This document shows, in pieces, positions 713 through 889 of a stretch of DNA of 64,000 bases; the first letter of the stretch is position 1; every line of letters starts with the position of its first letter. The notes beneath the pieces are model-generated. The model had not been told where the DNA came from. It saw only the letters and a list, made by a program, of their open reading frames with translations, and did not search any database. A program made the translations under genes and the position numbers. The stretch covers positions 1 through 64,000 of IMG/VR virus record IMGVR_UViG_3300043410_001823; one strand, given 5' to 3'. Source of the stretch: a virus.

Positions 713-742
713 TTGACATACAAAACAAAAGTATGTTATAAT
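713..742 (+). promoter_or_regulatory. Consensus sigma-70-type promoter upstream of a structured RNA
   Basis: TTGACA at 713-718 and TATAAT at 737-742 are separated by 18 bases, a near-perfect primary-sigma promoter. The predicted start (about 749) coincides with the first base of the long hairpin at 750-835. Confidence 0.88.
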
Positions 743-748
743 TAATTA

Positions 749-889
749 TCGTTATATGAAGGGACGAAAAATGATACAGCATAGCTTGTCTTATCAATCG
801 CAACTGCGTTTATTTTTCGTGCCTAAAATATAACGGGATTCACTTTTAATTAAATCCCGTTCTTTGACTAGGACGGGATTTTTTTATTT
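749..889 (+). ncRNA. Structured leader RNA with competing hairpins and terminator
   Basis: The RNA starts at the promoter above. CGTTATAT (750-757) pairs with ATATAACG (828-835), and CGAAAAAT (765-772) pairs with ATTTTTCG (812-819), giving a long imperfect stem. Segment A (832-840) can pair with B (853-861), and B can instead pair with C (873-880), which is followed by a T run. A:B is therefore a candidate antiterminator and B:C a terminator. It lies just before tRNA-Phe, so it may set expression of the downstream tRNA array or act as a small RNA. No known family is recognised. Confidence 0.6.
852..886 (+). terminator. Rho-independent terminator of the leader RNA
   Basis: AAATCCCGT (852-860) pairs with ACGGGATTT (873-881), with a 12-base loop and a T tract. 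The 5' arm can also pair with 832-840 upstream, so formation may be conditional. Confidence 0.8.

Follow-up and report, generated by a model that had tools for sequence, protein, structure and literature searches.

A putative leader-peptide attenuator in a phage tRNA operon whose leader lists the tRNA isotypes encoded downstream

The stretch of viral DNA analysed here (the window; 64,000 nucleotides, positions 1 to 64,000 of IMG/VR record IMGVR_UViG_3300043410_001823) carries, near one end, a tRNA array that is interrupted at 713-889 by a promoter and an intrinsic terminator. Why would a phage place a terminator directly in front of tRNA genes, and what would permit RNA polymerase to pass it? 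A reading of the sequence alone had suggested an attenuator or riboswitch controlling the tRNAs downstream or, alternatively, a stand-alone small RNA.

Promoter, leader ORF and competing structures

The promoter (713-742; plus strand, like all features described below for this locus) directly abuts tRNA-Ile (638-712) and consists of TTGACA, an 18-nt spacer and TATAAT with an extended -10 TG. It matches the consensus at 12 of 12 positions, so that its earlier description as near-perfect was accurate. Transcription is predicted to start at 749-751, 7-9 nt past the -10 motif, and the terminated RNA is predicted to be ~135 nt long. An inverted repeat, ACATAC...GTATGT, found in the promoter spacer (716-736) could be an operator.

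The RNA from 749 to 889 has a predicted folding energy of -48.0 kcal/mol, compared with -23.0 +/- 3.2 kcal/mol for dinucleotide shuffles (z -7.9; 0/200). Its stable 5' hairpin (751-834; z -5.6 against shuffles when folded alone) is closed by P1, in which the 5' end of the RNA (GUUAUAU, 751-757) pairs with 828-834, as had been noticed from the sequence. The Shine-Dalgarno (SD) sequence GAAGGGA (758-764) contributes to the 5' arm of the hairpin, 760-772, whose partner in the inverted repeat I3 is 812-824. The intrinsic terminator (852-886; -16.4 kcal/mol) is formed by arms at 852-863 and 870-881 followed by a T-run. Fold analysis also revealed a 9-bp antiterminator between a 5' arm, AACGGGATT (832-840), and a 3' arm, AATCCCGTT (853-861), which is inside the terminator 5' arm too (z -3.9; 0/200 shuffles). 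The segment 853-861 thus has two alternative partners: 832-840 in the antiterminator or, within 852-863, 870-881 in the terminator. The three-part arrangement proposed in the sequence-only reading therefore stands with a slight change of register, the third arm being 870-881 rather than 873-880, and its first segment does also belong to the 5' hairpin, as P1 reaches 834 and the antiterminator arm starts at 832. The thermodynamic balance lies on the terminator side (-16.4 versus -9.5 kcal/mol for the antiterminator), so the switch must be kinetic, and antiterminators acting kinetically are usual for switches of this type.

Inside the 5' hairpin lies a short ORF that the sequence-only reading overlooked. 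It runs from ATG771 to TAA833, encodes MIQHSLSYQSQLRLFFVPKI and is identified by its sequence, by a homologue in a second phage (L010) and by the permutation tests described below. The locus therefore presents an SD sequence and a short ORF between promoter and terminator. The stop codon (831-833) overlaps the antiterminator 5' arm and lies 21 nt ahead of the terminator, and this distance is 21-38 nt among the 31 sites that we list.

Downstream of the terminator, ARAGORN and Rfam identify 12 contiguous tRNAs at 890-1824 (Phe, Val, Ser(gct), Pro, Ser(tga), Arg, Tyr, His, Gln, Leu(caa), Lys and Leu(tag)), one more than the approximately eleven counted before. The residues F, V, S, P, R, Y, H, Q, L and K of MIQHSLSYQSQLRLFFVPKI are exactly the ten isotypes of these 12 tRNAs, and the only residues outside this set are the initiating Met and Ile. 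A tRNA-Leu(taa) at 2498-2571 (ARAGORN), the cognate of leader codon TTA810, may also be part of the same regulon. As the terminator T-run stops ~5 nt upstream of tRNA-Phe, there is no room for a promoter between them, and the array would be transcribed solely through terminator read-through, either from the promoter at 713-742 or from one further upstream.

Correspondence between leaders and tRNA arrays

L010 (IMG/VR 3300031884_000080) contains a syntenic homologue, located between tRNA-Ile and tRNA-Ala/Phe in an array of 24 tRNAs. Its leader, MNSCLRSYQLHQAIKPSFFVPKM, has gained C and A relative to that of the window, and its array has likewise gained tRNA-Cys and tRNA-Ala, two isotypes that are absent from both the array and the leader of the window. 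This leader, the second in L010, holds 12/12 isotypes of the downstream half of the array, including Ala and Cys. A further such element is found at the head of the array ahead of tRNA-Asn and tRNA-Trp, where the leader MNEKNAYTTMNTGNDNGNMSIADWTIES serves the first half and includes 7/7 of its non-Met isotypes. What is conserved between the window and this single close homologue is the SD sequence, its complement and the ORF, with FFVPK common to both leaders, while the antiterminator and the terminator of L010 are rebuilt from different sequences. Two of the six P1 pairs are compensated, which is weak support because it comes from two sequences only. The covariation check suggested in the sequence-only reading was hence passed weakly, there being one syntenic homologue, and judged from the sequences the codon content is stronger evidence than the compensatory changes. 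L010 provided the only close homologue of the window leader found in IMG/VR: the exact antiterminator pattern was not found there, degenerate FFVP/hairpin patterns searched in IMG/VR and GTDB genomes returned L010/L144 as the only genuine matches and others by chance, and a covariance model run over 46 related contigs found no homologue besides L010.

The design itself recurs in phages unrelated to the window. IMG/VR was searched for terminators immediately upstream of tRNAs, and a mechanical screen then yielded 69 distinct tRNA-upstream terminators, of which 53, in 36 sequence groups, have a short ORF. For instance, MKTNFVQQQQQQQTLNKGSGIAMS, a leader with seven consecutive Gln codons, precedes three tRNA-Gln in L192; MKHLSSLSSSSSLSESGGV precedes Ser Ser Glu Lys in L342; MTYKFLVNSDSSSSSDSDPRGGFPVR precedes Asp and then Ser Ser Ser in L330; and MKTMNLNTINNLNTLTVVNNTLCIRLTCYGGGIVV precedes Val Leu Ile Leu Arg Asn Cys Thr in L332. 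In L211, three leaders occur in succession and each matches its own segment of the array. In a permutation test in which the best ORF was allowed in every leader-operon pairing and permuted operons served as the control, the true pairings scored 46.9 for enrichment (permuted, 15.6 +/- 3.9; 0/2000) and 15.7 for coverage (permuted, 6.6 +/- 1.1; 0/2000). For the 53 sites in 36 groups, the corresponding z values against permuted operons were 8.4 and 7.8 (0/5000). They remained at 6.9 and 6.4 after removal of the window and L010, where the idea arose, and at 6.7 and 6.0 after the largest family was removed as well. The match was lost when the same DNA was read in the other two frames (z -0.1 to 0.9). 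The ORFs in our table of 31 leaders were picked partly by coverage, and the permutation tests are independent of this choice.

By these permutation and frame controls, the control codons correspond to the tRNA isotypes of the operon. No such correspondence extends to isoacceptor boxes: across sites, the choice of codon box for Leu, Ser and Arg is independent of the isoacceptor encoded, which places the matching at the amino-acid level; a match between leader and array at the isoacceptor level was tested across sites and found to be unsupported.

The roll-call design, in which a leader names the tRNAs of its own operon, is not universal among tRNA-rich phages. In the stretches examined from T5, S-CRM01, Cece and DAC22, none of the tRNAs has a terminator in the 60 nt preceding it; the Racecar stretch has one, located at a gene end; and the DSL-LC01 stretch is without tRNAs. 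When the leaders of L288, L342, L330 and L192 were used in DNA or protein searches for named relatives, no homologous leader was retrieved. We consider it probable that such attenuators evolved repeatedly in unrelated phage lineages as multi-input sensors that would keep tRNA arrays silent until any one tRNA runs short, for example after cleavage by a host defence nuclease. A full trp-like layout is also seen at 8950-9130 of L213 (reverse-complement coordinates), ahead of tRNA-Ile and tRNA-Tyr, where a CCTCC inside the ORF can pair with a GGAGG that otherwise starts the antiterminator arm.

Two cultured phages were found through tRNA-array searches after the hypothesis had been formed. Cellulophaga phage phi4:1 (KC821632) has three such leaders, with 6/6, 8/8 and 5/5 isotypes: MKIQRLHLQELEQP continued by IISGGTGV, ahead of Pro Glu Gln His Leu Leu Arg; MQLTKTGITVIDKTKGARA continued by YLGDTVIG, which has a GTG start and lies within the annotated gp075, ahead of Ala Lys Ile Gly Met Asp Thr Val Arg Met; and MKTNYCTYNNSNWSFSYDTGSVCTLGSDGLIG, ahead of Tyr Ser Asn Trp Phe. 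In Vibrio phage D69 (OZ195729), MSHSICSQSAQHSARYNAFNSWISNTLNLVTEDLS lies within VPHD69_0165 and precedes Ser Tyr Ile Ala His Phe Arg Ser Cys Trp Gln Asn, and all of the first 24 residues after Met (24/24) belong to the operon set (P 1.1e-7). Both gp075 (L395 3990-4109) and VPHD69_0165 (L396 3039-3182), which are annotated as hypothetical proteins, appear to be attenuator leader peptides instead of ordinary genes. D69 also contains, on the minus strand at 4220-4350 of L396, a promoter, an SD sequence and a coding start rich in Lys (MKRKHKSKQ...) that lead directly into tRNA-Lys with no terminator in between, which may represent a different form of tRNA control.

Our initial hypothesis was a classical attenuator sensing Phe-tRNA alone, with the remaining codons incidental. 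The tandem Phe codons UUU-UUC (813-818) are placed where a stalled ribosome would leave 832-840 free, tRNA-Phe is the first tRNA after the terminator, and FFVPK is kept in L010. The conservation of FFVP is, however, partly forced by its pairing with the SD region, tRNA-Ala rather than tRNA-Phe leads in L010, and a sensor of Phe alone leaves the coverage of ten isotypes in the window and twelve in L010, as well as the generality of the whole-leader match across phages, without explanation. The hypothesis was abandoned after the whole leader was found to match the array, and we regard it as improbable.

Predicted switching and proposed mechanism

Switching was modelled with a ribosome footprint of 31 nt. 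In the window, a ribosome with its P site at codon 819 or earlier is predicted to leave the antiterminator free, and from 822 on to mask it. Across the 31 leaders, the median probability that the terminator 5' arm is sequestered is 0.72 with the ribosome stalled upstream and 0.05 with the ribosome at the stop codon. A clear switch is predicted at 24 of the 31 sites, the remaining 7 falling below the criterion, and the computed profile of D69 is less clean than that of phi4:1. Each leader was then split at its own switch point into a sensing part and a masked tail. In the sensing parts, 212 of 379 residues match the operon, compared with 115.6 expected (1.83-fold; 0/5000 permutations), and in the masked tails 29 of 116 do, compared with 31.5 expected (0.92-fold; 2639/5000 permutations). 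In this model, the confinement of the match to the sensing part is the strongest evidence that the leaders are used as proposed.

The computed parts, the competing structures and a codon-operon match restricted to the sensing zone lead us to infer that the leader is translated and that ribosome stalling governs read-through; very probably, this phage tRNA operon is controlled by a ribosome-mediated leader-peptide transcription attenuator. RNA polymerase would start at about 749-751, and a ribosome would load at the SD sequence and ATG771 before the hairpin closes and read 20 codons, at least one for each downstream tRNA isotype. With all aminoacyl-tRNAs present, the ribosome would reach the stop codon (831-833) and cover 832-840, leaving 853-861 to pair with 870-881, and the resulting terminator would prevent synthesis of the tRNAs. 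With any listed aminoacyl-tRNA in short supply, it would stall upstream, at codons 2 to about 17, holding the 5' hairpin open, so that 832-840 would pair with 853-861, block the terminator and allow transcription of the array. In the case of no ribosome, P1 would take three pairs from the antiterminator and termination would be the likely default. The benefit may lie in replacing tRNAs after defence nucleases, starvation or shut-off have drained the host pool. Since the element would sense aminoacyl-tRNA, it would not distinguish amino-acid starvation from tRNA cleavage.

The leader could instead act as a nascent arrest peptide of the ErmC/TnaC type, in which FFVPK(I/M) itself stalls the ribosome when a small molecule is present. 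The short hydrophobic C-terminal peptide common to the window and L010 is what this proposal explains; it is nevertheless very unlikely, as no peptide motif is common to the leaders of the other systems, each of which instead reflects the amino acids of its own operon, and the tail residues close to the stop codon are not enriched. We give equally little credence to the ORF being coincidental and the RNA being either a riboswitch for some ligand or a small RNA in its own right, even though the 5' hairpin is very stable, its P1 covaries in one homologue and the terminated RNA of ~135 nt would be the default product of the promoter. No Rfam family, riboswitches included, reaches its threshold in 713-889 (Thr_leader RF00506, 19.1 bits versus a gathering threshold of 55; PyrG_leader, 25.5 bits versus 65), no aptamer-like core is apparent across the systems compared, the internal loop conserved in the one close homologue corresponds to the SD sequence and its complement, and the codon match vanishes in the other frames. 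With the sensor apparently a translated leader peptide, the riboswitch suggested from the sequence alone finds no support, nor does a function as a small RNA, whereas the suggestion of an attenuator of the downstream tRNAs is well supported. Least likely is an unregulated leaky terminator with a promoter between array halves: intrinsic terminators within long operons can be leaky, but leakiness accounts neither for a perfect competing antiterminator (0/200 shuffles) that L010 rebuilds with different sequence nor for the roll-call match.

Relation to known attenuators and phage tRNAs

The ilvGMEDA and thr leaders sense more than one amino acid, and pheST-type attenuators regulate a component of translation through the supply of one aminoacyl-tRNA. 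The latter respond to a single isotype and control a synthetase gene, whereas the element in the window would control tRNA genes. Like the trp, his, pheA, thr, ilvGMEDA and ilvBNC attenuators, the last being a leader-peptide transcription attenuator of an amino-acid operon in C. glutamicum (PMC11857589), it combines a promoter, a short leader ORF with control codons, an exclusive antiterminator/terminator pair and a stop codon at the antiterminator arm. Unlike them, it occurs in a phage and precedes tRNAs instead of enzymes, its SD sequence and start codon pair with the end of the ORF, and the phage leaders name as many as about 14 isotypes, in correspondence with the array. T-box leaders similarly respond to tRNA charging by forming either an antiterminator or a terminator, but their contact is with the uncharged tRNA itself and involves no translation; Rfam gave no T-box match at the gathering threshold, or up to an E value of 10 in 1-1000. 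In its testable anatomy, the element conforms to a ribosome-mediated transcription attenuator, and it differs from the described ones known to us in that tRNA genes would be regulated and the whole operon is listed. Nothing on leader-peptide attenuation of phage tRNA arrays was found in a search of open-access papers.

The reason for phage tRNA genes has been debated for more than 50 years (PMC10264068). The tRNA-Tyr of T5/SP15 counters retron-Eco7 (PMC11555353), and anticodon-loop variants of phage tRNAs serve as counter-defence (PMC10264068), which supplies a reason for tRNAs when the host pool is depleted. Neither report mentions attenuation or a leader, and one of them stresses a strong promoter; the T5 stretch examined, unlike the window, is without such an attenuator. 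A leader that lists the tRNAs under its own control suggests that their expression is meant to be on demand, when those codons fail, and opens the depletion and counter-defence hypothesis to a direct test in the cultured phages phi4:1 and D69. It would also bring leader-peptide attenuation to tRNA genes and raise the number of inputs, otherwise one or a few amino acids, to about a dozen, and such a leader would be a compact genetic reporter of the tRNAs missing from the cell.

Other structured RNAs accompany the array. A manA RNA (RF01745; 62.6 bits) is found at 107-295 of the window, within the array between tRNA-Trp and tRNA-Met. In the 117-nt spacer between tRNA-Thr and tRNA-Ile (521-637), AGATATATC close to the start and AGATATATCT close to the end make up a near-palindromic repeat; the spacer is possibly another structured RNA. 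A conserved hairpin without a match in Rfam is found beside phage tRNA genes at 301-346 of the window, at 2078-2110 of L010 and in L177-L181. Its loop, GGGGUUC[ACU]CUAAGUUGAAGCGAAU, is near-invariant, and its stems vary with pairing kept (CUAUUGCA/UGCAAUAG, UGCAA/UUGCA and GAGGCGGA/UCCGCCUC); the copy in the window, upstream of tRNA-Met, is also terminator-like.
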